From Aerosticca soli (GTDB lineage: Bacteria > Pseudomonadota > Gammaproteobacteria > Xanthomonadales > Rhodanobacteraceae), in the NCBI RefSeq assembly GCF_003967035.1, contig NZ_AP018560.1, positions 2,810,970-2,874,969 on the forward strand: a stretch of DNA of 64,000 bases, read 5' to 3'. Made by a program: the position numbers and the translations under genes. Each line of letters opens with the position of its first letter. Position 1 is the stretch's first letter. Below the pieces are notes generated by a model. That model saw only the letters and a program-made list of their open reading frames with translations, was not told the origin of the DNA and ran no database searches. Shown here piece after piece: positions 14,746 to 29,598 of the stretch.

Positions 14746-15558
14746 TCAGCGGCTGCCGAGCAGCAACCCGGCCAGATAGTGCCGCTGCAGCGCCATGAAG
14801 AGCGCGAGCGCGGGCAGCACGGTGACCGCGGAACCGGCCATCATGAGCTCGGTGTCCTGCGCGTGTTCGCGCGCGAGCGAGGCCAGCCCCACCGGCAGCG
14901 TGTAGTGCTCCTGGCCGGTCAGCACGATCAGCGGCCACATGAAATCGTTCCAGGCGGCCAGGAAGGTCAGCACCGCCAGCGTCGCCATCGCCGGCTTGAG
15001 CAGCGGCAGCACGATGGCGACGAAGATGCGCCACTCGCCGGCGCCGTCGATGCGCGCGGCCTCGATCAGTTCGACGGGCACGGCGCGGGCGAACTGCCGC
15101 ACCAGATAGATGCCGAAGGCACTGGCCAGCGCCGGCACGACCACGCCGGCGTAGCTGTTCACCCAGCCCAGCGCCTTGAGTTCCAGGAACAGGGGCAGCA
15201 TGGTCACCTGCGCGGGAATCGCCAGCGCGGCCAGCACGCCGCGGAAGAGCACGCGGCGCCCCGGGAAATCGAGCCGGGCGAAGGCGTAGCCGGCGGCGAG
15301 ATTGCAGCCCAGCGAAAGCAGGGTGATGGCGGCGGACACGCCGAGGCTGTTGGCGAGGTAGCGGCCCATGCCGGCGCGGGCGAACAGCGCGCGGTAGTTG
15401 TCCAGCGTCGGCGCCGGCGGCCAGGGCGACGCTCCCGCCCCGGCCGTGCCGGCCGGCAGCAGGGATACCACCAGCATCCAGCCCAGGGGGAACAGCGCGA
15501 CCAGCGCGCCGCCGAGCAGGAGGCCGTTGACCAGCACCCGGGCCAGGCGCGGACTCAC
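14746..15558 (-). CDS. Sugar ABC transporter permease (MalG/UgpE-like)
   Basis: 270 residues, six membrane helices, with the EAA loop IEAARIDGAGEWRIFVAIVLPLLKP (only the core EAARIDGAGE...P is diagnostic) that contacts the ATPase. Starts at GTG 15558, overlapping the TGA of the preceding permease gene (GTGA). Together with the two upstream genes it makes a CUT1-type oligosaccharide importer. Last gene of the leftward glycan locus; no terminator before the convergent pirin gene. Confidence 0.92.
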   Translation of the reverse strand: MSPRLARVLVNGLLLGGALVALFPLGWMLVVSLLPAGTAGAGASPWPPAPTLDNYRALFARAGMGRYLANSLGVSAAITLLSLGCNLAAGYAFARLDFPGRRVLFRGVLAALAIPAQVTMLPLFLELKALGWVNSYAGVVVPALASAFGIYLVRQFARAVPVELIEAARIDGAGEWRIFVAIVLPLLKPAMATLAVLTFLAAWNDFMWPLIVLTGQEHYTLPVGLASLAREHAQDTELMMAGSAVTVLPALALFMALQRHYLAGLLLGSR

Positions 15559-16433
15559 GATTCCCCCGCGCGCCGGAACAGCGCGAGCAGGCTGGTGGTC
15601 GCCGCCAGGGTCAGCGCGAACAGCACGAAGGCCACCGCCGAGCCCACGCCCAGGTTCCACCACTGGAAGCCCTCCTGATACATGAGGTAGAGCACGCTGA
15701 CCGTACTTTGCAGCGGGCCGCCCTCGGTGATCACGTAAGGCTCGGCAAAAAGCTGAAAATAGCCGGCCACGGTGAGGATGGTCACCATGCTCAGGGTCGG
15801 CAGCAGCGCCGGCAGGGTGATGTGCCAGAACCGCCGCAGCGGCCCTGCGCCGTCCAGCCGCGCGGCCTCGTAGAGTTCCGGCGCGATGCCCTGCAGGCCG
15901 GCGAGCAAGATGATCATGTTGTAGCCGAAGTTCTTCCACACCGCGAACAGGATGATGGTCGGCATCGCCCAGTGCGGATCGCCGAGCCAGTCCACCACCG
16001 GCAGCCCGAGCCGGGCGAGCCAGGCGTCGACGAGGCCCTCGCGGGCGTTGAAGAGATAGCGCCAGACCACCGCCATCGCCACCAGCGTAGTCACCACCGG
16101 CGCGAACAGCGCGGTGCGGAAGAAGGCCTTCGCCCGCGCCAGCGGCGAGTCGAGCAGCAAAGCGGCGCCGAGCGAGACGGCCATCGACAGCGGCACGCCG
16201 ACGAGCACGAAATAGACGGTGTGGCCGAGCGCCGACCAGAACAGCGGTCGCCGGAGCAGATCCAGATAGTTGTGCAGGCCGACGAAACGCAGCTGGTGCC
16301 AGTCGGCCAGCGCGTAGAGGTCGTAATCGGTCAGGCTGAGCAGCAGCGCACCGAGCACCGGCAACAGGAAGAACACGCCGAGCACCAGCCCCGCCGGGGC
16401 GAGGAACAGCCATGCCGCGCGATGCGTGTTCAT
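15555..16433 (-). CDS. Sugar ABC transporter permease (MalF/UgpA-like)
   Basis: 292 residues with six membrane helices and the EAA loop LYEAARLDGAGPLRRFWHI; N-terminal AWLFLAPAGLVLGVFFLLP is typical of the MalF/UgpA subfamily without the large periplasmic loop of MalF. Start ATG 16433 overlaps the binding-protein stop codon (ATGA). Heterodimer partner of the next permease. No ATPase gene follows, so an MsmK/UgpC-type shared ATPase elsewhere is expected (inference). Confidence 0.92.
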   Translation of the reverse strand: MNTHRAAWLFLAPAGLVLGVFFLLPVLGALLLSLTDYDLYALADWHQLRFVGLHNYLDLLRRPLFWSALGHTVYFVLVGVPLSMAVSLGAALLLDSPLARAKAFFRTALFAPVVTTLVAMAVVWRYLFNAREGLVDAWLARLGLPVVDWLGDPHWAMPTIILFAVWKNFGYNMIILLAGLQGIAPELYEAARLDGAGPLRRFWHITLPALLPTLSMVTILTVAGYFQLFAEPYVITEGGPLQSTVSVLYLMYQEGFQWWNLGVGSAVAFVLFALTLAATTSLLALFRRAGES

Positions 16434-17716
16434 CGCCGTGCCGTCCGCTTGAGAAGCCAGCGCCGCTTGGCCAGGATGCGGTCCACCCGGCGGTCGAGCT
16501 CGGCGGCGGCCTGATCGACATCGTATTCGCCGGCCACGGTCTGCGCGGCGACCAGCTGCATCTCGTTGGCGATGCGCTCCCACTCGGGCACCTGCGGAAT
16601 CGGCTTGACCCGTTCGAGCTGGGCGAGGAAGGCGCGCGTCTTGGCATCGTCGTGCAGCGCGCCTTCCGCCCATGCGCTGCGCCGCGCCGGCAGGTCGCCG
16701 AGCAGCGCGTAGAAGCGCTGCTGCACCTCGGGGCGGGAAAGGTATTCGATCAGCGCCCAGGCACCGCGCTGGTGCGGCGAGCGGGCGAACACCACCAGGC
16801 TGGAGCCGCCGGCAAGCCCGCTGCCCGGGCCATCCGCGCCGGGCAGCGTCGCGGTCGCCCAGGCCGACTCGAACGCGGGCGGCAGGCGCTGGCGCAGCTC
16901 GCCGATGTTCCACGGGCCGGACAGGTAGAACGCATAGGTGCCGCGCCCGAAGGCCTCCCACGGGTTGCCGGCCTCGACGTTGCTGATCGGCGGCGCCTGG
17001 CGCAGACGGAACGTCTCCACATAGAAAGCCAGCGCGCGCCTGAAGCCGGCGCTCCGGAAGTTGCCGTAGCGGTCGCCGTCGCGCAGCAGCGGCTCGGGTT
17101 GCTGCAAGGCCAGCGACAGCAACTGCTCGTATTCGTTGGTCGGCAGCAGGATGCCGTAGCGCTGCGCCTCGGGCCGGCTGAGCGCGGCCAGCATGCGCCG
17201 CCATTCGGCCCAGTCGCGCGGCGGGTGATCGAAACCGGCCGCGGCGAGCAGATCGCGGCGGTAGAACAGCAGCCGCGTGTCGGCATACCAGGGAATGCCA
17301 TAGACCCGGCCGGCGACCACGTTGGTGGCCCACAGGCTGGGAAAATAATCCTGCGCCACGACCGTGCGCGTCTGCGCCAGATACGCATCCAGCGGCGCCA
17401 GGGCATGCAGCGCGACCCATTCGGCAAGCCAGGTGTTGCCGAGCTGGGCCAGGTCCGGCAGGGTGCCGGCGGCGAAGGCGGTGAGCATCTTCTGGTGCGC
17501 CGCCGAATGCGGCAGCCGCTGCAGCTCGACGTGCAGGCCCGGATGCTCACGCTCGAAGTCGGGCAGCAGCATCGCCACCGCCTCGCCCTCGCGGCCGAAG
17601 GTCCAGAACTTGATCGTCTCCCCGCGCGGCGGACCGGCGCAGGCGCACAGCCCCGCCAGCACGAAGGCCATCAGCCCCCGCCGCCACCTGCGTGCCCGCC
17701 CGCCTCGCTCCGGCAT
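16430..17716 (-). CDS. Sugar ABC transporter substrate-binding lipoprotein
   Basis: 428 residues, extracellular-solute-binding family 1 (MalE/UgpB-like): IKFWTFGREGEAVAML, ELQRLPHSAAHQKMLTAFAAGTLPDL, GRVYGIPWYADTRLLFYRRD. The N-terminus has a hydrophobic stretch ending LAGLCACAG, a lipobox-like Cys, so membrane anchoring in the periplasm is likely. It should capture oligosaccharides released by the two glycosidases encoded just upstream. The gap to the GH39 gene is 74 bp with no visible terminator. Confidence 0.92.
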   Translation of the reverse strand: MPERGGRARRWRRGLMAFVLAGLCACAGPPRGETIKFWTFGREGEAVAMLLPDFEREHPGLHVELQRLPHSAAHQKMLTAFAAGTLPDLAQLGNTWLAEWVALHALAPLDAYLAQTRTVVAQDYFPSLWATNVVAGRVYGIPWYADTRLLFYRRDLLAAAGFDHPPRDWAEWRRMLAALSRPEAQRYGILLPTNEYEQLLSLALQQPEPLLRDGDRYGNFRSAGFRRALAFYVETFRLRQAPPISNVEAGNPWEAFGRGTYAFYLSGPWNIGELRQRLPPAFESAWATATLPGADGPGSGLAGGSSLVVFARSPHQRGAWALIEYLSRPEVQQRFYALLGDLPARRSAWAEGALHDDAKTRAFLAQLERVKPIPQVPEWERIANEMQLVAAQTVAGEYDVDQAAAELDRRVDRILAKRRWLLKRTARR

Positions 17717-17790
17717 GTCCGCCGCCCGCCCGATCGCTACACCGGCTTCACCGCTGCCCTGCCCGATGCCGAGCGCACCTGGGACCGCAA

Positions 17791-19314
17791 TCAGGGGCGC
17801 CCGCTCGAAAGCATGATCTGCACCAGGGCATTGGGCCCCAGCGTCAGGGTGAGCACGCCGTTCGTCAAGCGTCGTCGCTCCGGTACAAGCGCCGTGGCGG
17901 CATTGATCTGCGCCACCTGTGCGGGCGTGGGATAACGTGGCCGGCCGAGCCGTTCGTACACCGCCAGCGCGTTGCCATGTTCGGCATCGACGCGTCGAAT
18001 CACCGCCACTGCATCTGCCGCGAGGCCCGTTACTTCCAGTCGAAAGCGGCGTGTAGCAGCGTCTTCACCCGGATTGACCAGATGCCACAGCACGATGGCC
18101 AGGCTGCCATCCGTCCGGCGCGTGACGATGGCATGCGGCGACGGATGGGGCAGACGCTGCTCGCCGAGCTCGTGCAGCAGGGCGAAGGCGTAGTAACTCG
18201 GCTTGTCGATGCCGCCGATCGCGCGCAGGCCGAACAGGCCGGCGAACGGCGCGTGGTTGGGACCCTGCTCGTCGATGATGTCGGAGAAGGTCCAGAACGA
18301 CATCGCATCCACGAGGCCATCGCAGGCGCGCACCGTATCGGCCAGCGCCGGACCGACGTAGATGGTGTCGCGTAGGCCACCCTCGCGCAGCACGTTCCAT
18401 TCGGTCCACAACAGCGGCAGCCCGGGTCGCGGCGAGGCGGCAATCTGTCGATGCACCTTGGCGACCGCACGACACACGCGATCCTGCGGCGGCACCGGCG
18501 TGTCGTCGCCGAACAGATCCTGCTCGCGATCAGAGGCATAGCCGTGAGTGGAGACGAAGTCCACCGGCACATGCTCACGCGCAGCGTGGGCTAGAAAGGC
18601 ATCGACCCAGGCGGCGGCCGCGGTCGCCGGGCCGCCCACGCGCAGCCGCGCGCTGACCGACTTCAGCGCGCGGGCGGTGTGGTCGTACAGCTCGAAATAA
18701 CTGCGTTGGCGCGGCGCGCCGACCCAGAAGTCGATGTTGGGTTCGTTCCACACCTCGAAATACCACTGCGCCACCTCATCGCTGCCGTAGCGTTGCAGCA
18801 GATGCTCGGCGAAGGCCCGCACCAGCGCGTCCCAGCGCGCGTAGTCCTTGGGCGCGGACACGTTCGGCTTGTACCAGAACGGGTGCAGCGCATCCGGGTT
18901 GAACGCGAGCCGGCGCGGCATGAAGCCGATCTCCACCAGCGGCCGCACGCCTTCGGCGAGCAGCCCGTCGTAGACCTGATCGACCAGGGTGAAGTTGTAG
19001 ACCGGCGCGCCATGTTCGTCTTCGGTATATACGCCGAGATCGTCGTCGAAGATGCCGTGAAAGCGCACGTAGCCCAGCGCGGCCACCCGTTTCACGGCGC
19101 GCAGGTCGCGGCGATAGTCCTCACGCAGCGAGAGCACCGCACGGCCTGAACCGAACATGCGTTCCCAGAAATGCGGAAAGGGCCGCGCCGGTTCCCGGGC
19201 ATCGATGCGTATTGTCTCTTCTTGTCCGGATTGCGCATGCAGCGGCAACGACGACAGCCCCAACACCGCCAGAGTCGCGAGCATTTTCCAGCGAAAGGCG
19301 TAAGACAGACTCAT
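17791..19314 (-). CDS. GH39-like glycoside hydrolase
   Basis: 507 residues with a signal peptide (core LATLAVLGLSSLPLHA). TIM-barrel retaining hydrolase of clan A: acid/base Glu191 in FEVWNEPN and nucleophile Glu305 in LLWTEWN. Family GH39 includes beta-xylosidases, alpha-L-iduronidases, beta-glucosidases and others, so linkage specificity cannot be called. A C-terminal beta-sandwich follows, as in GH39 xylosidases. Start ATG 19314 overlaps the stop of the GH144-like gene (ATGA), so the two enzymes are made in a coupled way, probably for successive steps on one glycan. Confidence 0.85.
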   Translation of the reverse strand: MSLSYAFRWKMLATLAVLGLSSLPLHAQSGQEETIRIDAREPARPFPHFWERMFGSGRAVLSLREDYRRDLRAVKRVAALGYVRFHGIFDDDLGVYTEDEHGAPVYNFTLVDQVYDGLLAEGVRPLVEIGFMPRRLAFNPDALHPFWYKPNVSAPKDYARWDALVRAFAEHLLQRYGSDEVAQWYFEVWNEPNIDFWVGAPRQRSYFELYDHTARALKSVSARLRVGGPATAAAAWVDAFLAHAAREHVPVDFVSTHGYASDREQDLFGDDTPVPPQDRVCRAVAKVHRQIAASPRPGLPLLWTEWNVLREGGLRDTIYVGPALADTVRACDGLVDAMSFWTFSDIIDEQGPNHAPFAGLFGLRAIGGIDKPSYYAFALLHELGEQRLPHPSPHAIVTRRTDGSLAIVLWHLVNPGEDAATRRFRLEVTGLAADAVAVIRRVDAEHGNALAVYERLGRPRYPTPAQVAQINAATALVPERRRLTNGVLTLTLGPNALVQIMLSSGRP

Positions 19315-20771
19315 GGCGCGGGTGACGCCTGCAACCAGCCGCCGGTGAAGCCGGCGCGCTCCAGGCCCTTGCGCAGATACGGGTTCTTGCGCATTACCCG
19401 CCACACCAGGCCGCTGCGCCAGTTCTCGATCATCAGCAGGATCGGTCCCTGGTCGATGCCAAGCTGCACGGTGTCGGCCCAGCCCATGGGCGTCAGCTGG
19501 CCGGTGCGCAGCTCGGTGCGCAAATGGAAGCTCGGGTTGAAGGCGTCGACGAAACCGTAGCGGTTGTAGATGTACCGGCCGTAGCGCTGCTTCATCTCCG
19601 CGAGCGCCGAGAGCACCAGCGCCGGCTCGAAGACGATCGAGCCGCCCGCGGCGGTCGGCGCCAGGGTGCCGTCGTCGTTGATGTAGTCGAGCCCGGCGCC
19701 ACGCGCGCTGTAGCCCTCGAAACGACGGACGCCGTCGACGTCCTCGACCACGTAACCGCCCGGCCCGTTGCAGGCGGTGAGCCCCCACACGTTCGCGCCA
19801 TAGCCGGTCCAGCGGCCGGGGTTGGCGATCGCGTAGTTGCGCTGGCTGCGCACGGCGCGCCGGCTGTTCTCGAAGAAGTCGATGTCGTGGGCCTGTGCCC
19901 AGGCATCGCGGATGCCGCGGAAATCCACCCAGATGTGGCTGTACTGATGGCCGAACAGCGGCGCGAAATTGAGCAGGGTCTCGCCGTAGAAAGCGCCCCA
20001 GTGCTTGTCGTTGCCGGCGCTCCACGCCTGCCAGGCGTCCGCGCCGACCGGATGCGTGGGCGAGCCTAAGGCGAGCAGATAGACCAGCATGCCTTCGTTG
20101 TAGCCGACCCAGTCCACCGGAATGTATTGGCCGCCCGGTGTCCAGCCCATGCTGATGAGCGGCGCGCGCGGCTGCATCCACGGCCAGTCCACCGCACGGT
20201 AGATCGCATCGGCGAGTGCGCGGATCTCGCGTTCGGCCGGCGTGTCGCGATCGAAATACGACTGCGCGAACAATACGCCGCCGAGCAGCAGGGCCGTGTC
20301 CACGCTGGACAACTCGACGAAGCGCGCGAAACGCCGGCCGCTGCGCATGTCCAGGAAGTGGTAGTAGAAGCCGTGATAGCCCGTGGCATCGTCCTCGCTC
20401 GCGTTCTGCGGCGCATTCTTGAAAAAACGCAGCGTGGCGAGCGTGCGCTCGGCCGCCTGTTCGCGGCTGACGTAGCCGCGTTCGGCGCCGATGCCGTAGG
20501 CGGTGAGGCCGAAGCCGACGGCGGCGATGCTGGCGAACGACTCGCCGGGGAAGTGATCGGGCACCAGGCCGGTCTTGGGGTCGGCACTCGCCCAGAACCA
20601 GTCGAATGTGCGCCGTTCCAGCTCGTCGACCAGCGCCCGTTGCGAGGGCGTGGCTTCCTCGTAGCGCAAGAGCGGCGGCTCCCCCGCGGACGCGGGCGGC
20701 ACCGCGAGCACGAGCAGCATCAGCAGGACGCCGCCGAGGCGGGCGATGGCATCACGAAGCAGAGTGGGCAT
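19311..20771 (-). CDS. GH144-like (glycoamylase domain) secreted glycosidase
   Basis: 486 residues with a signal peptide ending near PPASAG. The (alpha/alpha)6-barrel glycoamylase domain (PF10091 type) is evident: ERRTFDWFWASADPKTGLVPD, SIAAVGFGLTAYGIGAERGY, GYHGFYYHFLDM, GYNEGMLVYLLALGSPTHP, WGLTACNGPGGY and AGGSIVFEPALVLSALAEMK (motifs quoted in part). Characterised members (GH144) are endo-beta-1,2-glucanases; 'glucoamylase' in old annotation is not supported by biochemistry. Substrate here is therefore probably beta-1,2-glucan or a related glucan, by inference. Coupled to GH39 downstream. Confidence 0.82.
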   Translation of the reverse strand: MPTLLRDAIARLGGVLLMLLVLAVPPASAGEPPLLRYEEATPSQRALVDELERRTFDWFWASADPKTGLVPDHFPGESFASIAAVGFGLTAYGIGAERGYVSREQAAERTLATLRFFKNAPQNASEDDATGYHGFYYHFLDMRSGRRFARFVELSSVDTALLLGGVLFAQSYFDRDTPAEREIRALADAIYRAVDWPWMQPRAPLISMGWTPGGQYIPVDWVGYNEGMLVYLLALGSPTHPVGADAWQAWSAGNDKHWGAFYGETLLNFAPLFGHQYSHIWVDFRGIRDAWAQAHDIDFFENSRRAVRSQRNYAIANPGRWTGYGANVWGLTACNGPGGYVVEDVDGVRRFEGYSARGAGLDYINDDGTLAPTAAGGSIVFEPALVLSALAEMKQRYGRYIYNRYGFVDAFNPSFHLRTELRTGQLTPMGWADTVQLGIDQGPILLMIENWRSGLVWRVMRKNPYLRKGLERAGFTGGWLQASPAP

Positions 20772-20814
20772 GGGGTATTCCCGTGGTTACGTCACGCGGC
20801 GGGCGCGCGGCTCG

Positions 20815-22332
20815 TCAGGCGGCCTGTGCGGCGGCGGCACAATGGCGGGCGATGAAGGCCTCGTGCGGCGGCATCGCCGCCACGCAGCTGGCGATGACCT
20901 CCTCCACGTGCGCGATGAAGGCCTGGAGCTCGGCCTCGGGCACCTGGTCGACCAGCGGATGATAGGCGCGCGGCATCAGTCCCTGGCCCAGCATCACCTC
21001 GACCCAGCTCGGCTCGGCGAACATCTCCTCGGCATGGCGATAGAAGCGACCGCTGTCGTGGAACAGGGCGATGTTGTCGGCCAGCTCGATCGGGATGTCC
21101 ATGTACCGGCAGGCGCGCCAGAACGGCTCGGCGCGATCGTTGAGGCGATAGTGCAGGATCAGGAAATCGCGGATGCGATCGAACTCGAACGCCGACTGCG
21201 CGTTGTAGCGGTCGATCAGCACCGGGTTGAAATCGCGGCGCGGCCACAGGCTGAGGAGCTTGGCGATGCCCGACTGGATGAGATAGATGCTGGTCGACTC
21301 CAACGGTTCCAAAAAGCCGCTGGCCAGCCCCAGCGCGACCACGTTGCGGTTCCAGAACTTCTTGCGTCTTCCGGTCACGAAGCGCAGCAGCCGCGGATCG
21401 CCGAGCGGCCTGCCGTCCAGATGGGCGAGCAGCGTGGCGGCGGCCTCGTCGTCGCTCACGTGGGCGCTGGAATACACGTAGCCGTTGCCGGTGCGGTGCT
21501 GCAGCGGAATCCGCCACTGCCAGCCGGCGGCGCGCGCGGTCGAGCGCGTGTAGGGCGTGGGCGGGCCGACTTTCTCGCACGGCACCGCCAGCGCGCGGTT
21601 GCACGGCAGCCAGTGGCTGAAGTCGTGATACCCGGTGTGCAACGCATCCTCGATCAGAAGACCGCGGAATCCCGAGCAGTCGATGAAGAGGTCAGCGGAG
21701 AGCGCCTGGCCATCGGCGAGCACCACCGAGGTGACGAAGCCGCTCTCCGGATCCAGCCTGACCTGGTCGATGCGACCCTCGTGGCGGCGCACGCCGCGCG
21801 CCTCGGCATAGCGGCGCAGGTAGCGCGCATACAGGCCGGCATCGAAATGGTAGGCATAGGCGATGTTGGCCAGTGGCGAGCTTGGCGACACGTCACTGGC
21901 CGAGGTCATGAACTTGCCGCGCGGCGCCGCCGCGGTGTTGAGCGAATAGGCGCCGATGTCCTTGGCGCGGCCGGCCAGAAACGCCTTGATCCAGTATTGG
22001 TGGAAAGGCTGCGAGCCGAGCTCGCGGCCGATGCCGCCGAACCCGTGGACGTAGCTGTCGCCCGGCCGCCCCCAGCCGTTGAACTGGATGCCGAGCTTGA
22101 AGGTGCCCTGGGTCTGCCGGACGAATTCGCGCTCGTCGATCTGGAGCAGGTTGTTGAACAACTTGAGGTGGGGCACGGTGGCCTCGCCCACGCCCACAGT
22201 GCCGATCTCGTCGGATTCGACCAGCGTGATGCGACAGGCCGTGCCGAGCACGCGGGCGAGAGCCGCCGCCGCCATCCAGCCGGCGGTCCCGCCGCCGACG
22301 ATGAGGATGCGTTCCAGGTTCGCGGGAATCAT
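20815..22332 (-). CDS. Flavin-dependent tryptophan-halogenase-like protein
   Basis: 505 residues. All landmarks of flavin-dependent halogenases are intact: FAD-binding GGGTAGW (13-19), Glu/Ser segment VGVGEATVP, the catalytic Lys at position 79 (QGTFKLG), which is the PrnA/RebH number, and WQWRIP at 271-276 that blocks monooxygenase chemistry. A halogenating enzyme needing FADH2, halide and oxygen is predicted; no flavin reductase is nearby. Halogenases of this clade recur beside TonB receptors in Xanthomonas and Caulobacter glycan loci; the native substrate is unknown to me. Expressed downstream of an internal terminator. Confidence 0.9.
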   Translation of the reverse strand: MIPANLERILIVGGGTAGWMAAAALARVLGTACRITLVESDEIGTVGVGEATVPHLKLFNNLLQIDEREFVRQTQGTFKLGIQFNGWGRPGDSYVHGFGGIGRELGSQPFHQYWIKAFLAGRAKDIGAYSLNTAAAPRGKFMTSASDVSPSSPLANIAYAYHFDAGLYARYLRRYAEARGVRRHEGRIDQVRLDPESGFVTSVVLADGQALSADLFIDCSGFRGLLIEDALHTGYHDFSHWLPCNRALAVPCEKVGPPTPYTRSTARAAGWQWRIPLQHRTGNGYVYSSAHVSDDEAAATLLAHLDGRPLGDPRLLRFVTGRRKKFWNRNVVALGLASGFLEPLESTSIYLIQSGIAKLLSLWPRRDFNPVLIDRYNAQSAFEFDRIRDFLILHYRLNDRAEPFWRACRYMDIPIELADNIALFHDSGRFYRHAEEMFAEPSWVEVMLGQGLMPRAYHPLVDQVPEAELQAFIAHVEEVIASCVAAMPPHEAFIARHCAAAAQAA

Positions 22333-22348
22333 CGGATGAGCCCTTGGT

Positions 22349-22379
22349 AAAAAGACCGGCCGCCCATGCAGGCGGCCGG
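22349..22379 (-). terminator. Intrinsic terminator between TonB receptor and halogenase genes
   Basis: Perfect 9-bp stem (22356-22364 with 22371-22379, CCGGCCGCC/GGCGGCCGG), 6-nt loop, followed on the minus strand by TC and five T residues (22353-22349). It lies 26 bp after the receptor stop and 17 bp before the halogenase start. It should cut most transcripts after the receptor gene and leave lower readthrough into the enzyme and importer genes. Confidence 0.8.
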
Positions 22380-22404
22380 CGGTACTTTCGATGCGTCTTC
22401 GACG

Positions 22405-25400
22405 TCAGAAGTTGAGCCCCACCTCGAACTTGAAGGTGCGCGGGACGTAGGTGATGTTTCCAGTGGGATTGTACTTGGCTTTGGCATGCGGCTTACCGTT
22501 AGCCAACGCATAGTCATAAAGCAGGTCGCTGTAATTGTTGAAGCCGAACACGTTGAGCACGTCGAGGCGGCCGAACAGCGTCACCCCATGGCCGAGATCG
22601 AAGTTCTTGGTGGCCTGGAAATCGACGTCGCGATAGCCGAACACCTTGCCACCGATCAGGAACTTGCCATTGCCGCCGGGCGTCACTCCGATAGGTACGC
22701 AGGCACTGCCGTTGGGGAAGGTATAACCGTAGCTACCGAAGCATGCCACGGTATTGCCGGGGATGGGCGTGGCCAGGGTCAACTTCAGCGAATACACCGT
22801 ATTCCATGGGCCATCCATGTTACCGGTGGCGACGAAACGGTGCTTGGACGCGGCATTGGAGGTGATAAAGGGATAATCCTTGATGGTCGCCTCGTCGAAT
22901 GAATAGTGCTCGTTGATATCGCGGTTCTGCTTGGCGTGGGTAAAGGTGTAGGCGAAGGTCGCCCCCCAGCCCGATTCCTTGGTATAGGGCTTCTCGGCGG
23001 AAAGCAGGATCTGCGTGCTGCGGGTTTCGATGCCGTTGTTGCCCAGGATCAGGGGGCCGAAACCGGGCACGCCATTACCCCAGGGCTGACTGTTGTCTTT
23101 CCAGAACGAACCGTCCGGATAGCGATTACCCAGGGTGAAGGCAAAGCCATTGCGGTAGAGCACGCGGCTCACCGTGGCATCGGTGTTCCATTCGCCGATC
23201 TGGTTGCGCATGCCCAAGCTGTATTGGTCCGAATACGGCGCCTTGAGGCGGTTGTTGAGCAGATCGACCTCGGTGCCTGCGTTACTGGAAGGGCCCAACA
23301 AGGCCTGCAGGTTGGGCAGGCCATTGAGCAGGTTCGGATCCCAGTCGTAGCAGGGCGTGGAATCACGCCGGCAAAGCCCCGTAACCGGGTCACGGAAATA
23401 CACCGTGTATTGCGGCAAGGCCGACTTGGTGGTTTCCAGCTGCAGGTAGTCGTAAAGATCCCGATCATAGGCACGACCGGCACCACCGTGGATCACATGC
23501 GCCTCGTCGCCGAACAGGTCATAGGAGAAACCCAGCCGCGGCTGCCATTCACCCTTGTAGGCGTGGCGGTTGTGGCCGTCGCTGATGTAGTCGCCGATGT
23601 TGATGCCGCCCTTGGCCAGGCTCTCGGCATAGGTCTGGCCAGGCGCGTTCGGATCCGGGCCATACAACGCCGCCACCACGTTGGCCGGGGTGACGAAATC
23701 GGTATACGAGGGCGTGCGCTCGTAATCCCAGCGCACGCCGAGGTTCAGGGTCAACTTGTCGGTGACGTCCCAATCGTCCTGGATGTAGGCGCCGAACTGG
23801 TGACTCTTGGTCCGCACTGAGGGTGAAAGCCCCAGTCCCTCGACCGGCTTGGTGAAGAAGGCCTTGTACGGCGTCGGGTCAGGCCCATTGGGGGTCACGT
23901 TGTAATAGAACTGCGGGTTGACGTCCGCCGCGTCGGCAGCATGCAGATTGATGAGCTTTTTCTTGAAGCCCATCTTGATCACATGGTCGCCATGCCACTC
24001 GAGATTGTTGAAAGTGAAGTCGTCCTGGATCGCAGGGCCATTCTGCCCCTTGTTCTGCGTCGCCAGCGGATTGGCCGCACCGGTCTCGACGATCGACATG
24101 TCATCGCTGCCGCGCGGCCAGGTATATACGTAACCGTTGCCATAGTTGATCGCGGTCGGCGCGTTCACCGCGGTCTCGTAAGTGAGCAGCAGTTCGTTGA
24201 AATAGAAATCGCCGCTGTGCTGCCAACGCACGGCGAAGCGTTTGTCGTTGTTGACCGTATTAAAGGCTGCCGAGGGTGCCACGGGCCCGCCCAGACCGCC
24301 ACGCTGTTTTTCTTCACGGATTTGCGCGGTGGCCTCGAAACGATCACGGTCGGTCGGTTCGAAGTCGATCTTGCCGAAGTAAAGATCCTCATGGAACGGC
24401 AGATTGGCCGGTCCCAGCTGGGCGGCCACACTGGGCGGCAAATAGGCCGCCCCGGGGGCCGCGTCCGGATTGGGCACGACGGTGATCGGCGTATTGAAGG
24501 TCTTCGCCTCATAAGTGACGAAGAAATGCATCATGTCCTTGATGATCGGCCCGCCCAGCGCAAAGCCGTATTCCTTTTCTTCGGATTGCGCCTTGCGGTC
24601 GGCGGCCTTCTCCGCCGGCGTCCGCTCGCGGAAGGCGTCGTTGGTATAGCGATAAAAAGTCTCGCCATGAAACTCATTGGTGCCAGACTTGGTCTGCGCG
24701 GTCACCGCGGCGGAGGAAATCTGGTCGTATTCGGCCTTGTAGTTGGAGGTAATGACTTTGTATTCGCCGATCGCCAGCTGCGGGAAAGGATTGCCCTGAC
24801 TGTTGATCTGGCCACTGACGCCGCCCTCCTTGACGTAACTCTTTTGCCCGACGCCGTCGATGTAGACGTTCACCGAGCTGTTGTTGAGCGCGCCGCCACG
24901 CAGCGAGGTATTGCCATTGGCGTCCACCGTGAACACCATGCCGGGCACGGTGTCGGCAAACTCCAGGAAGTTGCGCGATACCTGCGGGATGGTCGCGATC
25001 TCGCGCTGCGAGACGATCTGCGCGACCTCCGGCGTCTTCACCTCGGTCAGCGTGGTCGCCGTCACCGTGATGCTGCCGAGCGAGGTGGCATTGGCGCTGG
25101 CCGGCGCGGCGGACGCTGCCGGCTGCAGGTTCAGGGTGACGGTGGAGGCCACGTTCAAGGTCACCGTGCGTTCGGTGCCCGGGCCCGCGTCGATCTGGTA
25201 GGTGCCGGGCGGCAGTCCAGGGATGGCATAGCTGCCATCGGCCGCCGCCCGGGCGCGCCGGACCAGGCCGGTGGCGACATTGCGCGCCGTGATCTCCGCA
25301 TTGGCCGGCGCCGAGCCGCGCACGGTGGCATTGGCACTCTGCGACCAGGCGACCGTCGGCGCGACGGCCAGGGCGGTGAATGTACCGGCGATGACGCTCG

Positions 25401-25437
25401 CCAGCAGGCTCTTTCTCAACAACTGGGTCTTGCGCAT
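22405..25437 (-). CDS. TonB-dependent receptor with N-terminal carboxypeptidase-regulatory-like domain
   Basis: 1010 residues: signal peptide (to about residue 33, AWS), an Ig-like carboxypeptidase-regulatory/Oar-type domain (about 35-110, with GSYAIPGLPPGTYQID), plug (about 120-260, SLRGGALNNSSVNVYIDG), and a large barrel ending in Phe (FEVGLNF). Such receptors import large ligands, commonly oligosaccharides, using TonB. It is the main outer-membrane entry of this glycan locus. Ribosome binding site GGGAGGGG precedes ATG 25437. Base use is visibly more AT-rich than the flanking genes. Starts 12 bp after the lacI-type gene, so it is co-transcribed with its likely regulator. Confidence 0.93.
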   Translation of the reverse strand: MRKTQLLRKSLLASVIAGTFTALAVAPTVAWSQSANATVRGSAPANAEITARNVATGLVRRARAAADGSYAIPGLPPGTYQIDAGPGTERTVTLNVASTVTLNLQPAASAAPASANATSLGSITVTATTLTEVKTPEVAQIVSQREIATIPQVSRNFLEFADTVPGMVFTVDANGNTSLRGGALNNSSVNVYIDGVGQKSYVKEGGVSGQINSQGNPFPQLAIGEYKVITSNYKAEYDQISSAAVTAQTKSGTNEFHGETFYRYTNDAFRERTPAEKAADRKAQSEEKEYGFALGGPIIKDMMHFFVTYEAKTFNTPITVVPNPDAAPGAAYLPPSVAAQLGPANLPFHEDLYFGKIDFEPTDRDRFEATAQIREEKQRGGLGGPVAPSAAFNTVNNDKRFAVRWQHSGDFYFNELLLTYETAVNAPTAINYGNGYVYTWPRGSDDMSIVETGAANPLATQNKGQNGPAIQDDFTFNNLEWHGDHVIKMGFKKKLINLHAADAADVNPQFYYNVTPNGPDPTPYKAFFTKPVEGLGLSPSVRTKSHQFGAYIQDDWDVTDKLTLNLGVRWDYERTPSYTDFVTPANVVAALYGPDPNAPGQTYAESLAKGGINIGDYISDGHNRHAYKGEWQPRLGFSYDLFGDEAHVIHGGAGRAYDRDLYDYLQLETTKSALPQYTVYFRDPVTGLCRRDSTPCYDWDPNLLNGLPNLQALLGPSSNAGTEVDLLNNRLKAPYSDQYSLGMRNQIGEWNTDATVSRVLYRNGFAFTLGNRYPDGSFWKDNSQPWGNGVPGFGPLILGNNGIETRSTQILLSAEKPYTKESGWGATFAYTFTHAKQNRDINEHYSFDEATIKDYPFITSNAASKHRFVATGNMDGPWNTVYSLKLTLATPIPGNTVACFGSYGYTFPNGSACVPIGVTPGGNGKFLIGGKVFGYRDVDFQATKNFDLGHGVTLFGRLDVLNVFGFNNYSDLLYDYALANGKPHAKAKYNPTGNITYVPRTFKFEVGLNF

Positions 25438-25449
25438 GGTGCCCCTCCC

Positions 25450-26484
25450 TCAAGGGTTGGTGATTGATCCAGTGGATGCGGTCGCCGTGGTGGCGCCGCA
25501 GCTGCCGCGGACACGCACGCGGCAGGCAGCAAAAAGCGTGTCTTCCGGTACCGCTGCGGGCGGTCCGTCCAGCCGCGCGACCAAGGTCTCGAGCGCGCAG
25601 CGCCCCCATTCGGCGATGCGCACCTCCACGGTGGTCAACGGCGGATCCAGATAGCGCGCGATGGGGATGTCGTCGAAACCGGCCAGGCCCATGTCCTGCG
25701 GCACGTTCAAGCCGGCCTGGCGCAGGGCGTGCAGACAGCCCAGCGCCATCATGTCGTTGGCGGCGAACACGGCCTGCGGCAGGGTCGGCAGGGCGAGCAG
25801 GGCGAGTCCGGCGCGGTAGCCGGAATCCTCGGTGAACTCACCCGGCAACACGCAGGGCGCCGTGCCTGGGGCGAACGCTGCCAGCGCATCGCGATAGCCG
25901 GCCTCGCGCTGGCGGGCATCGTAGTTGGCCGCGGGCCCGCCGATGAAAGCGACGGCACTGCCGCGCGCGGCGATCAGGTGCCGGGTCATCGCATAGGCGC
26001 CGCCATAATTGTCGAGATTGAGCACGCCATACTCGCCACTCTCCAGGGCGCTGTTGAGCAGCACCACGGGCAAGCCCGCCGGCAGATTGGCCTGCAGGAA
26101 GGCGGCGTCGACCCAGGGCGAGAGGATCAGCATGCCGTCGACGCGACCCTGCATGGCCCGCATGGCGAGTGCGGCCTCCTCGACGTCGCCGTGGGAACTG
26201 GAAACCAGCAGATGCAGGCCTCGCGGACGGGCGGCGAGATCGATGCCGCGGATCAGTTCGGAGAAAAACTCGCCGTAGAGATCCGGCAGCAGTACGCCGA
26301 TGGTGTGCGTGCGCCGGGTGATCAGGCTGCGCGCGGCCATGTCCGGCACGTAGCGAAGCTGCGCGGCGATTTGGCGGATGCGCGCGGCGGTCTCGGCGGT
26401 GACTCCGCCGTGGCCGTTGAGGGCACGCGACACCGAGGCCACGGACACCCCCGCTTCGCGCGCTACGTCTCTAATCGTCACCAT
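25450..26484 (-). CDS. LacI-family transcriptional regulator of the glycan locus
   Basis: 344 residues from ATG 26484. N-terminal HTH VTIRDVAREAGVSVASVSRALNG (start VTIRDVAREAGVS) with hinge-helix YVPDMAARSL, then a periplasmic-binding-protein-like effector domain ending in LTTVEVRIAEWG. Typically a repressor released by a mono- or disaccharide derived from the imported glycan. A LacI-type palindrome lies 39 bp upstream of its start, so autoregulation of the whole leftward unit is likely. An upstream in-frame start at 26565 would place the operator inside the gene and is rejected. Confidence 0.92.
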   Translation of the reverse strand: MVTIRDVAREAGVSVASVSRALNGHGGVTAETAARIRQIAAQLRYVPDMAARSLITRRTHTIGVLLPDLYGEFFSELIRGIDLAARPRGLHLLVSSSHGDVEEAALAMRAMQGRVDGMLILSPWVDAAFLQANLPAGLPVVLLNSALESGEYGVLNLDNYGGAYAMTRHLIAARGSAVAFIGGPAANYDARQREAGYRDALAAFAPGTAPCVLPGEFTEDSGYRAGLALLALPTLPQAVFAANDMMALGCLHALRQAGLNVPQDMGLAGFDDIPIARYLDPPLTTVEVRIAEWGRCALETLVARLDGPPAAVPEDTLFAACRVRVRGSCGATTATASTGSITNP

Positions 26485-26522
26485 GCCCGTCCCGCCGCCC
26501 CTGATCGACGTTTGCGCCCGAA

Positions 26523-26536
26523 CGTAAACGTTTTCA
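26523..26536. promoter_or_regulatory. LacI-family operator
   Basis: CGTAAACGTTTTCA, a near-perfect dyad around the central CG typical of LacI/PurR operators (TGNAANCGNTTNCA). It sits between the divergent lacI-type gene and the SPFH-like gene. Confidence 0.65.
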
Positions 26537-26605
26537 TACGCCGCTGTAAAGCTGCAGTGAAGCATCGCCGCCAGGCCCTGGCGGCGGGGCAGTTCGCCCG
26601 ATCGC

Positions 26606-26691: not shown

Positions 26692-27147
26692 ATGCTTGCG
26701 CTACTGCCCCTCACCGTTCTCACCGCCTTGGCGGCAACCACCGCCTTCCGGCGCGTGCCGGAAGGTCAGGTCTTTAGCGTCTACCGCGCCGGCAAGCCGC
26801 ATCGCCTGCTCAAGCCCGGTTTGCACGCGCTGGTGCCGGGGCTGGACCGCGTCGTCCATCGCATCGATCTCAACGGCCGCGTGCTGCCGTTCGCGGCGCC
26901 GCTGCCCGAGGCACGGGACGTGCACGGGCGCGTGTACTGGCAGGTCCTGGAGCCGGAACGCGCCGATCCGGTGCTCGATGAGGTGGAACCGTGGATCCGG
27001 CGCGGCTTGCTGGAGGCGCTGGAGGCCGAACCGGCGTCGGTGGGCGCCGATCCGCGCGCCCTCGGCAGCCGACTCAAGCAGCGCCTCAACGCCGCGCTGC
27101 GCGAACGCGGCATGATGGTCACCCGGGTCGAACTCGACTTCGCCTGA
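26692..27147 (+). CDS. Short SPFH/band-7-like membrane protein
   Basis: 151 residues: N-terminal hydrophobic helix (LALLPLTVLTALAATTAF), then RRVPEGQVFSVYRAGKPHRLLKPGLHALVPGLDRVVHRID (quoted in part; the VPEGQ..V...G...R.L.PGLH..VP pattern is the band-7 start). Much shorter than full stomatins (about 250-300 residues) and lacking the long coiled coil. Role unknown; membrane anchored, probably a scaffold fragment. Followed by rsmG in the same direction (68 bp). Confidence 0.6.
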   Translation: MLALLPLTVLTALAATTAFRRVPEGQVFSVYRAGKPHRLLKPGLHALVPGLDRVVHRIDLNGRVLPFAAPLPEARDVHGRVYWQVLEPERADPVLDEVEPWIRRGLLEALEAEPASVGADPRALGSRLKQRLNAALRERGMMVTRVELDFA

Positions 27148-27215
27148 AGCTCCGCCGGCCGCCCTCCGCCGGCCGGCGAATACCGCCGCCTTCGTTACCC
27201 GCCCACCGAGACGGC

Positions 27216-27866
27216 ATGACCGACGCCAGCCTCCAAGCCCGCCTCGAAGAGGGCATCCAGGCGCTCGGGCTCACCCTGCCGCCCGAGGCGGTGCCGCGCC
27301 TGCTCGCCTATCGCTCGCTGCTGGAACGCTGGAACGGCGCCTACAACCTGACGGCGGTGCGCGATCCGGCCGAGCAGATCACCCGGCACCTGCTCGATTC
27401 ACTGGCCATCCTGCCCCATGTACGCGGCCGCACGCTGGCCGACCTCGGCACCGGCCCGGGGCTGCCTGGCATTCCGCTGGCGATCGCGGCACCGGGGCGG
27501 CAGGTGCTGCTGGTGGATGCTAACGGCAAGAAGGTGCGCTTCCTGCGCGAGGCGATCCGCACGCTCGGGCTGGAAGGGGTGAGCGCGGTGCAATCGCGCG
27601 TGGAGGACGTCGAGGGCCGCTTCGACTGCGTCACCGCGCGCGCCTTCGCCAGTCTCGCCGACATGCTGGCCTGGGGCGGCCACCTGCTCGCCGACGACGG
27701 CTGCTGGCTGGCGATGAAGGGCCGGCTGCCGGAAGAGGAACTGGCGCAGGTGCCACCGGCCTTCGCGGTGCGCGCGGTACACGCGCTCGACGTGCCCGGA
27801 CTTGCCGCCCCGCGCCATCTGGTGGTGCTCGGACATGCCGGCCGGGAGACCGGGACGGGCTGCTAA
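27216..27866 (+). CDS. rsmG: 16S rRNA (guanine527-N7)-methyltransferase
   Basis: 216 residues; SAM-binding motif LADLGTGPGLPGIPLAI and the NLTAVRDP and TARAFASL family blocks. Methylates G527 of 16S rRNA. Start ATG 27216. Order rsmG-parA-parB is the classic origin-proximal arrangement. Confidence 0.96.
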   Translation: MTDASLQARLEEGIQALGLTLPPEAVPRLLAYRSLLERWNGAYNLTAVRDPAEQITRHLLDSLAILPHVRGRTLADLGTGPGLPGIPLAIAAPGRQVLLVDANGKKVRFLREAIRTLGLEGVSAVQSRVEDVEGRFDCVTARAFASLADMLAWGGHLLADDGCWLAMKGRLPEEELAQVPPAFAVRAVHALDVPGLAAPRHLVVLGHAGRETGTGC

Positions 27867-27910
27867 GCTTTAGGCGTTTCCCTATCGCGCCTCACAGGTC
27901 CGGACGATCC

Positions 27911-28738
27911 ATGGCCCGCATCATCGCTGTCGCCAACCAGAAGGGTGGCGTCGGCAAGACCACCACCGCGGTCAATCTCGCCGCCGCGCTCGCCGCGGCG
28001 AAGCGGCGCGTGCTGCTGGTCGATCTCGATCCGCAGGGCAACGCCACCATGGCTTCGGGCATCGACAAGCGCAGCGCCAAGCCGAACGGCTGCGAGGTGC
28101 TGCTGGACGAGGCGCCGATCGAGCGCGCCATCGTCGCCACTGCGGCGCATTACGACCTGCTGCCCGGCAACGGCGACCTCACCGCCGCCGAGATCAAGCT
28201 GATGGACGCGCTGGCTCGCGAGAGCCGGCTCAAGGAACAGCTGGCCAAGGTGGCCGACCGCTACGACACCATCCTGATCGACTGCCCGCCTTCGCTGCAC
28301 CTGCTCACGCTCAATGCGCTGACCGCGGCGGACGGCCTCTTGATCCCGGTGCAGTGCGAATACTTCGCGCTGGAAGGCCTGTCCAGCCTGCTGGAGACGG
28401 TCAAGGCGGTGCGCCAGCGGCTGAATCCGAAACTCGCCATCGAGGGGCTGCTGCGCACCATGTACGACGTGCGCAACAACCTCGGCAACGAGGTCTCGGC
28501 GCAGCTCACCCAGCATTTCGGCGACCAGGTGCTGCGCTCGATCATCCCGCGCAACGTACGCCTGGCCGAGGCGCCCAGCCACGGTCAGCCGATCCATCTC
28601 TACGATCGCAGCTCGCGCGGGGCGATCGCCTACATCGGCCTGGCCGGCGAACTGATCCGTCGCGAGCGCGGCGCGCCCGCCGAACCGGTGCTCGCCGAGA
28701 CCGACGCCGGCGAGCCGTCCGAGCATCGACAGGAGTGA
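27911..28738 (+). CDS. parA: Chromosome partitioning ATPase ParA/Soj
   Basis: 275 residues. Deviant Walker A KGGVGKTTTAVNL near residues 10-22, switch I/II region DLDPQGNATM and DCPPSLHLLT. ATP-dependent DNA binding drives segregation of ParB-parS complexes. The stop is followed 2 bp later by parB, so they form an operon with rsmG (44-bp gap). Confidence 0.96.
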   Translation: MARIIAVANQKGGVGKTTTAVNLAAALAAAKRRVLLVDLDPQGNATMASGIDKRSAKPNGCEVLLDEAPIERAIVATAAHYDLLPGNGDLTAAEIKLMDALARESRLKEQLAKVADRYDTILIDCPPSLHLLTLNALTAADGLLIPVQCEYFALEGLSSLLETVKAVRQRLNPKLAIEGLLRTMYDVRNNLGNEVSAQLTQHFGDQVLRSIIPRNVRLAEAPSHGQPIHLYDRSSRGAIAYIGLAGELIRRERGAPAEPVLAETDAGEPSEHRQE

Positions 28739-28740
28739 CC

Positions 28741-29598
28741 ATGGCGGCAAAGAAGCGGGGGCTGGGACGGGGACTGGATGCGCTGCTCGGCGGCGAGGCC
28801 CCGTCCGCGGCGGGCGAAGCCGAGGGCGAGCTGCGCAGCCTGCCGATCGAACAGATCCGCCCGGGGCGCTACCAGCCGCGCCGGCACTGGAACGAAGAGG
28901 CGCTCGAGGAACTCGCCGCCTCGATCCGTGCACAGGGCTTGATCCAGCCGGTGGTGGTGCGCGCGCTCGGCGGCGACGGCTACGAATTGATCGCCGGCGA
29001 ACGCCGCTGGCGTGCCGCGCAGCGTGCCAGGCTCGCCGAGATCCCGGCGCTGGTCAAGGACGTACCGGAAGCGGCAGTGCCGGCGATGGCGCTGATCGAG
29101 AACATCCAGCGCCAGGATCTCACCCCGCTGGAAGAGGCCGATGCGCTGAGGCGCCTGATCGAGGATTTCGGCCTCACCCACCAGCAGGCGGCCGACGCGG
29201 TCGGCCGCTCGCGCGCCGCGGTATCCAACCTGCTGCGGCTCACCGAACTGCCCGCGGCGATCAAGAAACTGCTCGACGAAGGCCAGCTGGACATGGGCCA
29301 CGCGCGCTGCCTGCTGACGCTGGAGGTCGACGTCGCCGTGCCGCTGGCGCGGCAGGCCGCGACCCTCGGCTGGTCGGTGCGCGAGCTGGAGGAAGCCGCC
29401 CGCCGCGCGCAATCCGCGCCGCGCGGCAAGAGCAAGCCCGGCGCGCGCGATCCGAACATCGACGCGCTGGAGCGCGAACTCGGCGAACGCTTCGCCACCC
29501 GCGTGGAAATCGCCGATGGCCGCGGCGGCCGCGGCAAGCTGGTGATCCACTACCACAGCCACGACGAGCTGGAAGGCATCCTCGGCAAGCTGCGCTGA
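28741..29598 (+). CDS. parB: Chromosome partitioning protein ParB
   Basis: 285 residues: N-terminal MAAKKRGLGRGLDALLGG (ParA-interacting), CTPase domain with GERRWRAAQRA and ENIQRQDLTPLEEA, HTH VGRSRAAVSNLLRL, and C-terminal dimerisation region. Binds parS and CTP. I see no parS-like TGTTTCACGTGAAACA in the window. Confidence 0.96.
   Translation: MAAKKRGLGRGLDALLGGEAPSAAGEAEGELRSLPIEQIRPGRYQPRRHWNEEALEELAASIRAQGLIQPVVVRALGGDGYELIAGERRWRAAQRARLAEIPALVKDVPEAAVPAMALIENIQRQDLTPLEEADALRRLIEDFGLTHQQAADAVGRSRAAVSNLLRLTELPAAIKKLLDEGQLDMGHARCLLTLEVDVAVPLARQAATLGWSVRELEEAARRAQSAPRGKSKPGARDPNIDALERELGERFATRVEIADGRGGRGKLVIHYHSHDELEGILGKLR

Follow-up and report, generated by a model that had tools for sequence, protein, structure and literature searches.

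What would a single bacterial operon achieve with a TonB-dependent receptor (TBDR), a halogenase, two glycosidases and an ATP-binding cassette (ABC) importer? This question is raised by a locus in the window, as we call the whole analyzed stretch of 64,000 nucleotides, which is the last 64 kb of the one-contig, 2.87-Mb genome of Aerosticca soli. Eight collinear genes on the minus strand encode, in this order, a LacI-type repressor, the TBDR, a flavin-dependent halogenase, a GH144 protein, a GH39 protein, an ABC solute-binding lipoprotein (SBP) and two permeases. As judged from sequence comparison, the operon very probably specifies a system for scavenging β-1,2-glucan. A preliminary description had proposed a β-1,2-glucan (or similar) utilization system with TonB and ABC steps and a halogenase of unknown purpose in its middle, and this picture gained substance from an XcSGL-type GH144 enzyme, a Lin1841-type SBP, a conserved neighborhood and a Trp_halogenase gene that is indeed present between the genes for TBDR and GH144.

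The best match of the GH144 protein in the Protein Data Bank (PDB) is 8XUL with 562 bits (next match, 205 bits), an E239Q mutant chain of XcSGL (XCC2207), the Xanthomonas campestris GH144 protein that hydrolyzes β-1,2-glucan (PMC12102758; this and all other papers are cited for the parts of their text that were accessible). The two proteins are 55% identical over 407 compared positions. Residues E239, F286 and Y367 of XcSGL, which define the clan (PMC12102758), correspond to E226, F273 and Y354 of the window protein, and XcSGL I453 is also kept. Two other solved GH144 enzymes, CpSGL (5GZH) and BDI_3064 (5Z06), match the protein as well. Domain, nearest enzymes and clan residues place it in GH144 (clan GH-S), and it is predicted to be a secreted β-1,2-glucanase. 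E226, D158, F273 and D440 are invariant in 81 of 81 proteins.

The second line of evidence comes from the SBP, a protein with the lipobox LCAC (read from the sequence). Its PDB matches are headed by 3UOR with 489 bits and Lin1841 with 191, followed by one at 110 bits, and maltose binders in the match list score at most 105. Lin1841 from Listeria, the nearest relative with a known ligand, binds Sop3-5 (PMC12369401). A β-1,2-glucanase-type gene and a gene for a Lin1841-type ABC binding protein, the pair by which we recognize a β-1,2-glucan cluster, thus occur together, and the assignment of the locus to β-1,2-glucan is well supported by these similarities. In a locus from Xanthomonas sp. F10 (L065), the GH144 protein scores 933 bits against XCC2207 and the adjacent SBP 727 bits against 3UOR and 228 against Lin1841. 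Because close relatives of both lie side by side there, this one locus suggests that XCC2207 and 3UOR, the latter presumably from Xanthomonas citri, both stem from loci of this kind, and β-1,2-glucooligosaccharides are suggested as ligands of 3UOR-type binding proteins.

When the window's GH144 protein was used as the query, at least 594 stretches were matched and at least 577 confirmed; the best 80 (loci L002 to L081), by title mostly Lysobacterales, were kept, and each was annotated with the window proteins. Both lacI and the gene for permease 2 are present in 66 of the 80 loci, and all 66 also hold genes for SBP, permease 1 and GH144 (the last by construction, the loci having been found with this protein), while the TBDR is encoded in 62, the halogenase in 17 and GH39 in five. 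This shared gene core is not due to chance. The nearest TBDR among the fetched loci, with 79% identity, is that of Fulvimonas soli (Rhodanobacteraceae). Two loci stand out by their titles: one designated Bacillus subtilis (L077) bears a Stenotrophomonas-like copy, the assembly probably being mislabeled or mixed, and one designated as a metagenome-assembled genome of Acidobacteriota (L067) bears a diverged copy.

The features have the following positions in the window:

26524..26537, minus strand: LacI-type operator TGAAAACGTTTACG, preceding the lacI ATG (26484) by about 40 bp
25450..26484, minus strand: lacI-type repressor, 344 aa, PF00356 and PF13377 (LacI/Peripla_BP)
22405..25437, minus strand: TBDR, 1010 aa, Pfam OMP_b-brl_4 and CarboxypepD_reg
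22355..22380, minus strand: terminator-like hairpin between TBDR and halogenase, 11-bp stem with nine GC pairs, tail CTTTTT
20815..22332, minus strand: flavin-dependent halogenase of the BrvH/Xcc4156 group, 505 aa, Trp_halogenase PF04820, 661 bits
19311..20771, minus strand: GH144, predicted secreted β-1,2-glucanase, 486 aa, Glycoamylase PF10091, 268 bits (cut-off 27)
17791..19314, minus strand: GH39 exo-glycosidase-type protein, 507 aa, Glyco_hydro_39 PF01229, 317 bits
16430..17716, minus strand: SBP of the Lin1841 type, 428 aa, Pfam SBP_bac_1
15555..16433, minus strand: ABC importer permease 1, BPD_transp_1 PF00528
14746..15558, minus strand: ABC importer permease 2, GTG start, BPD_transp_1 PF00528

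From lacI to permease 2 the intergenic distances are 12, 72, 43, −4, 74, −4 and −4 bp, and coordinates and Pfam agree with the earlier account of eight collinear genes with gaps of at most 74 bp, three overlaps and a LacI-type operator upstream. For lacI, 26484 is the preferred start, because the operator would fall within the coding region of a longer open reading frame (ORF) that begins at 26565. By Pfam, SBP and two permeases of a CUT1-type importer are present; the permeases match the MalF/MalG and UgpA/UgpE models, all far under the cut-offs. A SusC/SusD pair as in a polysaccharide utilization locus of the Bacteroidota type is not apparent, as Pfam detected a SusD-type domain in none of the eight proteins. 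Just beyond the operon, ORFs at 26991-29598 were recognized from their translations as RsmG/GidB-, ParA- and ParB-like, neighbors which suggest a site near the chromosome origin.

We propose that β-1,2-glucan, likely made by other bacteria, would be brought into the periplasm by the TBDR, which the LacI-type repressor likely controls. GH144 would cut the glucan into short β-1,2-glucooligosaccharides, which the Lin1841-type SBP and the two permeases would carry into the cell. The ATPase and finishing β-glucosidases would be supplied from outside the operon, by MalK-type, GH1 and BglX-type GH3 loci. GH39, the start of which reads like a signal peptide, may serve as an auxiliary periplasmic exo-glycosidase trimming non-reducing ends or side groups. 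With its residues for making and delivering hypohalous acid, the halogenase would attach a halogen, probably bromine, to an aromatic compound that is produced or encountered during feeding, and it would not be needed for glucan breakdown itself. In this scheme, gene order, domains, catalytic residues, conservation and the sharing of the operator are observed, and the substrate, the directions of transport and the roles of halogenase and GH39 are deduced.

Regulon and transcription

The locus had initially been taken to be complete, which is wrong: none of the eight genes encodes an ATPase or a GH1 or GH3 β-glucosidase, and these lie elsewhere in the genome. The cluster thus lacks a finishing β-glucosidase or phosphorylase, unless GH39 serves as such, and also the ATPase of a CUT1 system. 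The single MalK-type gene of the genome is located at 413 kb, adjacent to and divergent from the only GH1 gene (411-414 kb). The GH1 protein is 63-78% identical to 17 GH1 proteins and the MalK-type protein 61-74% identical to 14 MalK proteins encoded near the locus in relatives. One of three GH3 genes (L088, at about 1,262 kb) passes the BglX cut-off; it carries the operator TGTAAACGTTTACG 13 bp before its start, and its product shares 76-82% identity with the GH3 proteins encoded near the locus in L008 and L003.

The strict operator pattern, TGNAANCGNTTNC, derives from a consensus that was set after viewing the regions upstream of lacI, so the occurrence of the site class there (70/70 loci in a loose scan, 60/69 with the strict pattern) is not independent evidence; the counts for malK, GH1 and GH3 are independent. 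In the relatives, the strict operator was found upstream of malK in 13/14, of GH1 in 8/15 (shared divergent region) and of GH3 in 4/5 cases, furthermore of the TBDR gene in 11/71 and of GH144 in 16/81. It was not detected upstream of the genes for halogenase (0/23), SBP (0/68), permease 1 (0/68), GH39 (0/5) and a downstream protein, termed cluster 5 and described below (0/50), nor at six flanking gene groups outside the locus (0/140). Random 310-bp locus segments, true sites included, contained it in 123 of 4000 cases. The relatives keep homologues of MalK, GH1 and GH3 beside the locus under the same type of operator. As far as our literature searches reach, this β-1,2-glucan regulon of the Lysobacterales with its operator is new, as is the likely link to 3UOR-type binding proteins, and a vague "glycan locus" becomes a testable β-1,2-glucan regulon with named parts at three places of one genome.

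One operator and one transcript had been assumed for the operon. The single LacI-type operator at its front stands, but a single transcript is doubtful because the terminator-like hairpin separates receptor and halogenase. The hairpin (22380-22355) consists of 11 pairs followed by CTTTTT. Folding of the gap gave a z-score of −1.8, and equal stability was reached in 8 of 200 shuffles. The stretch contains ten terminator-like hairpins versus a shuffled mean of 6.7 (s.d. 3.2), which is no excess; our attention to this one is due to its length and to the recurrence of such hairpins in relatives. Under stricter criteria, the gap 3' of the TBDR gene holds a hairpin in 6/23 loci with and 16/51 without halogenase, the lacI-TBDR gap in 2/66, the GH144-SBP gap in 6/72 and the SBP-permease 1 gap in 1/71; mononucleotide shuffles yielded 0.3, 1.3, 0.4, 0.7 and 0.1 in the same order, the median gap lengths being 132, 255, 120, 74 and 35 bp. 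A scan of the stretch for σ70-like promoters found none, which is weak evidence in a GC-rich genome. Partial termination at the hairpin, by which receptor expression would be set above enzyme expression, is the arrangement we infer.

Several observations weigh against a β-1,2-glucan scavenging operon as we propose it. A search of the PDB at E ≤ 0.001 returned no solved relative of the TBDR. The operator was not found at the genome's own GH1 and malK genes, and its core, AAAACGTTTACG, occurs genome-wide with up to one mismatch at three sites versus three for a reversed control. Being uninformative on its own, the motif was rejected as a genome-wide regulon marker; only its position before the same genes across relatives counts. 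The hairpin may split the operon in two. β-Xylosidases make up the ten best PDB matches of GH39 (287-322 bits), which is no pointer to glucose. Finally, no halogenase was seen in 56 of the 80 fetched loci, and 51 of the 74 with a TBDR likewise show none, so in these the system does without the enzyme.

The halogenase

The best PDB matches of the halogenase are Xcc4156 (6Y1W, 534 bits), 9LUQ and BrvH (6FRL, 500 bits), all at 500-534 bits, compared with at most 295 bits for tryptophan halogenases (2WET, PrnA). The motifs GxGxxG and WxWxIP and the catalytic lysine and glutamate assign it to the BrvH/Xcc4156 group. K79 and E345 (the catalytic pair), W271 and W273 are invariant in all 25 locus halogenases; the GxGxxG glycines are kept in 24-25 of the 25 rows (one is gapped) and the final proline of WxWxIP in 24. 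For BrvH and the Xcc enzymes, bromination of indole-type test compounds is described, and the native substrates are unknown (PMC5945002; PMC7336383).

Wherever fetched loci hold TBDR, GH144 and halogenase, the latter sits between the other two. One branch in a tree of 75 receptors separates 56 rows (the window included), 24 of which go with a halogenase, from 19 rows of which none does (Fisher p 0.0003, uncorrected for kinship, with at least 7-8 gains or losses of the halogenase). Among 97 family genomes, at least 85 contain PF04820 and at least 80 PF10091, and genes for the two lie no more than 2.6 kb apart in at least 40 (pairs by eye, distances checked). The TBDR gene is directly upstream in 26 and GH144 directly downstream in 23 of 31 halogenase loci, which comprise 29 relatives (best match per genome) and two loci of the window's genome. 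Locus halogenases group together, with 49 rows inside a marked set of 52 (two pairs are identical, the window's protein is counted twice and duplicates of six other loci were dropped).

We also inspected 20 further high-scoring halogenases whose genes do not adjoin GH144. They were taken in order of score, with a single protein from each genome; G000 and G086, the latter at a contig end, were omitted. Only four have a TBDR gene directly upstream (L125, L130, L136 and L144), and the notion of a strict TBDR partner everywhere was rejected on this count. In L132 and L141, a TBDR gene lies upstream of a second halogenase gene adjoining the chosen one; for the remaining proteins the neighbors are mostly unrelated or without Pfam match. 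Starch-type settings occur in L144 (TBDR, halogenase, GH13 amylase) and L143 (pullulanase, halogenase, GH97). Only some members of this halogenase group are thus linked to glycan receptors, and these receptors are of more than one kind. The second halogenase gene of the window's genome (L083/L087, 939720-941087) lies beside a gene for a CstA-type carbon starvation transporter, without adjoining TBDR gene and with an amidohydrolase gene further downstream. A modification of the receptor by the halogenase was also considered and dropped, as among receptors of the halogenase-bearing clade no column of W, Y, F or H varies with the presence of the enzyme.

Could the halogenase gene simply be a passenger, transcribed as a unit of its own downstream of a terminator and without any link to glucan use? 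The hairpin upstream of it, the failure to see it in most fetched loci, the lack of an operator upstream of it and of a receptor aromatic column that follows its presence, and the indoles on which its nearest studied relatives act all speak for this explanation. Its constant place between TBDR and GH144, its proximity to GH144 in so many family genomes, its restriction to one receptor clade, its intact active-site residues and the negative promoter scan speak against it, and we consider a passenger unlikely, though worth serious thought. Because the gene occurs near GH144 in many genomes and was seen only with one receptor clade, we rather see in the halogenase a putative receptor-linked accessory. 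A bolder proposal would make BrvH/Xcc4156-type halogenases dedicated partners of glycan-capturing TonB receptors in Lysobacterales, for β-1,2-glucan here and starch elsewhere, with the halogenated aromatic compound signaling or guarding the captured sugar; this is conceivable, if distinctly speculative.

Judged by titles and the beginnings of abstracts, the open literature yielded no description of an association of such halogenases with TonB or glycan loci. As far as these searches reach, the association is new, and it is the surprising part of the present analysis. A large group of halogenases without known native substrate gains a repeated genetic setting in which to seek their role, and if the enzyme does take part in feeding, the reach of halogenation chemistry would no longer be confined to natural-product synthesis but include carbohydrate nutrition.

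GH39, cluster 5 and other possible substrates

The GH39 protein, the only one of the genome, has the catalytic pair E191 (acid/base, in an NEP motif) and E305 (nucleophile), which is kept in six of six GH39 proteins. Its position between GH144 and SBP recurs only in L008 among the 80 fetched loci and is an uncommon insertion. A neighborhood search for conservation of GH144, GH39 and halogenase, suggested in the preliminary description, consequently gave a mixed answer: all three in such order are rare, being seen in L008 alone among the fetched relatives, whereas a halogenase beside GH144 without GH39 is common in relatives. In four relatives (L006, L016, L017 and L022), GH39 is encoded about 3-6 kb downstream of permease 2, 13-34 bp after GH1, and the operator is present in the divergent malK/GH1 region. 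This arrangement makes GH39 appear to share the regulon.

Cluster 5, an uncharacterized protein of about 900-1,100 aa, adjoins permease 2 in 50 of the 68 loci with enough downstream sequence (e.g., L013:14474-17188 and L036:14430-17807) and was not found in the window's genome. Its predicted fold (pLDDT 82) comprises, in our own domain reading, β-sandwiches and an (α/α)6-type helical domain. Nearest to it are dextran dextrinase, GH94 phosphorylases and glucodextranase with about 9-14% identity, and cluster 5 may represent an undescribed glycosidase family. It is not a GH3 β-glucosidase, to which it has no similarity. The idea that it opens α-1,6-cyclized glucans and hence tracks OpgG is unsupported: OpgG/MdoG occurs in 4/97 genomes, cluster 5 in 27/97 and both in two. 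GH39 is encoded in 5/18 loci without cluster 5 and in 0/50 with it (Fisher p 0.0008, uncorrected for kinship); as it appears only where cluster 5 is lacking, it may replace that enzyme. The halogenase is present in 15 of the 18 loci without cluster 5, and mutual exclusion of these two is not claimed, since at least 11 of the 27 cluster 5 genomes have a halogenase beside GH144 (by eye).

GH39 also prompts a different view of the substrate, namely a mixed glycan, one containing xylose, or a plant sophoroside, on which GH39 would act as β-xylosidase and GH144 on the β-1,2-linked part. This alternative draws on the uniform β-xylosidase matches of GH39 and on its position inside the operon, which sets the locus apart from all but one of the 80 relatives. 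We nevertheless regard it as quite improbable, as the conserved core without GH39 consists of GH144 and a Lin1841-type SBP, as GH39 apparently belongs to the same regulon in the four relatives where it follows GH1, and as family GH39 includes a reported β-glucosidase, CmGH1, albeit an atypical one without the usual catalytic glutamates (PMC6933502).

Even less probable is a recycling of the cell's own osmoregulated or cyclic β-1,2-glucans. Xanthomonas does make an α-1,6-cyclized β-1,2-glucan (PMC11228985). Many relatives carry ORFs of about 2,900 aa with a weak PF10091 match (e.g., G021:C1:630396 and G054:C56:94426), a size that we take to be that of cyclic glucan synthases; several of the genomes have a second GH144-like gene some 5-18 kb away. 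The window's genome has no such ORF and no MdoG/OpgG match, its only PF10091 match is the GH144 protein described here, and a TonB receptor implies uptake from outside. An importer for α-glucans (maltodextrin), as the Pfam name "Putative glucoamylase" for PF10091 and the distant MalF/MalG-like permease matches might suggest, can be set aside as the least probable option, because XcSGL, the closest PF10091 protein with a known structure, is a β-1,2-glucanase (PMC12102758) and the SBP is closer to Lin1841 than to any listed maltose binder.

Comparison with known systems

The proposed β-1,2-glucan scavenging operon can be set beside several described systems. XcSGL (XCC2207, 8XUL) represents the same GH144 type with the same defining residues, and its close relative in Xanthomonas L065 (933 bits) is encoded in a locus with lacI, TBDR, GH144, SBP, permease 1 and permease 2 in the same order as in the window. 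L065 differs by a TBDR of another clade, by the absence of halogenase and GH39 and by an additional downstream gene for cluster 5. In its accessible part, the paper on XcSGL describes the enzyme and not an operon (PMC12102758).

β-1,2-Glucan clusters with ABC importers are already known. The Ignavibacterium album cluster IALB_1177-1187 resembles the window in its GH144 enzymes and a putative Sopn-binding ABC protein, and a route via TonB and then ABC transport has already been proposed for this organism; unlike the window, it includes a GH35 transglycosylase and a GH94-type gene, and the accessible text mentions neither halogenase nor GH39 (PMC8861115). Clusters from Listeria innocua (Lin1839-1841) and Streptomyces griseus (SGR_2422-2427) share the Lin1841-type SBP with the window and contain a GH3 or GH1 β-glucosidase preferring β-1,2 links (PMC12369401). 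They differ in belonging to Gram-positive bacteria without outer membrane and in the replacement of GH144 by a phosphorylase (Lin1839) or GH193. As for the halogenase, BrvH (6FRL) and Xcc4156 (6Y1W) are among its three best PDB matches and have the same catalytic lysine and glutamate. The word "TonB" is absent from the main text of the papers on these enzymes (PMC5945002; PMC7336383, accessible parts), whereas the window's halogenase gene lies inside a glycan operon.

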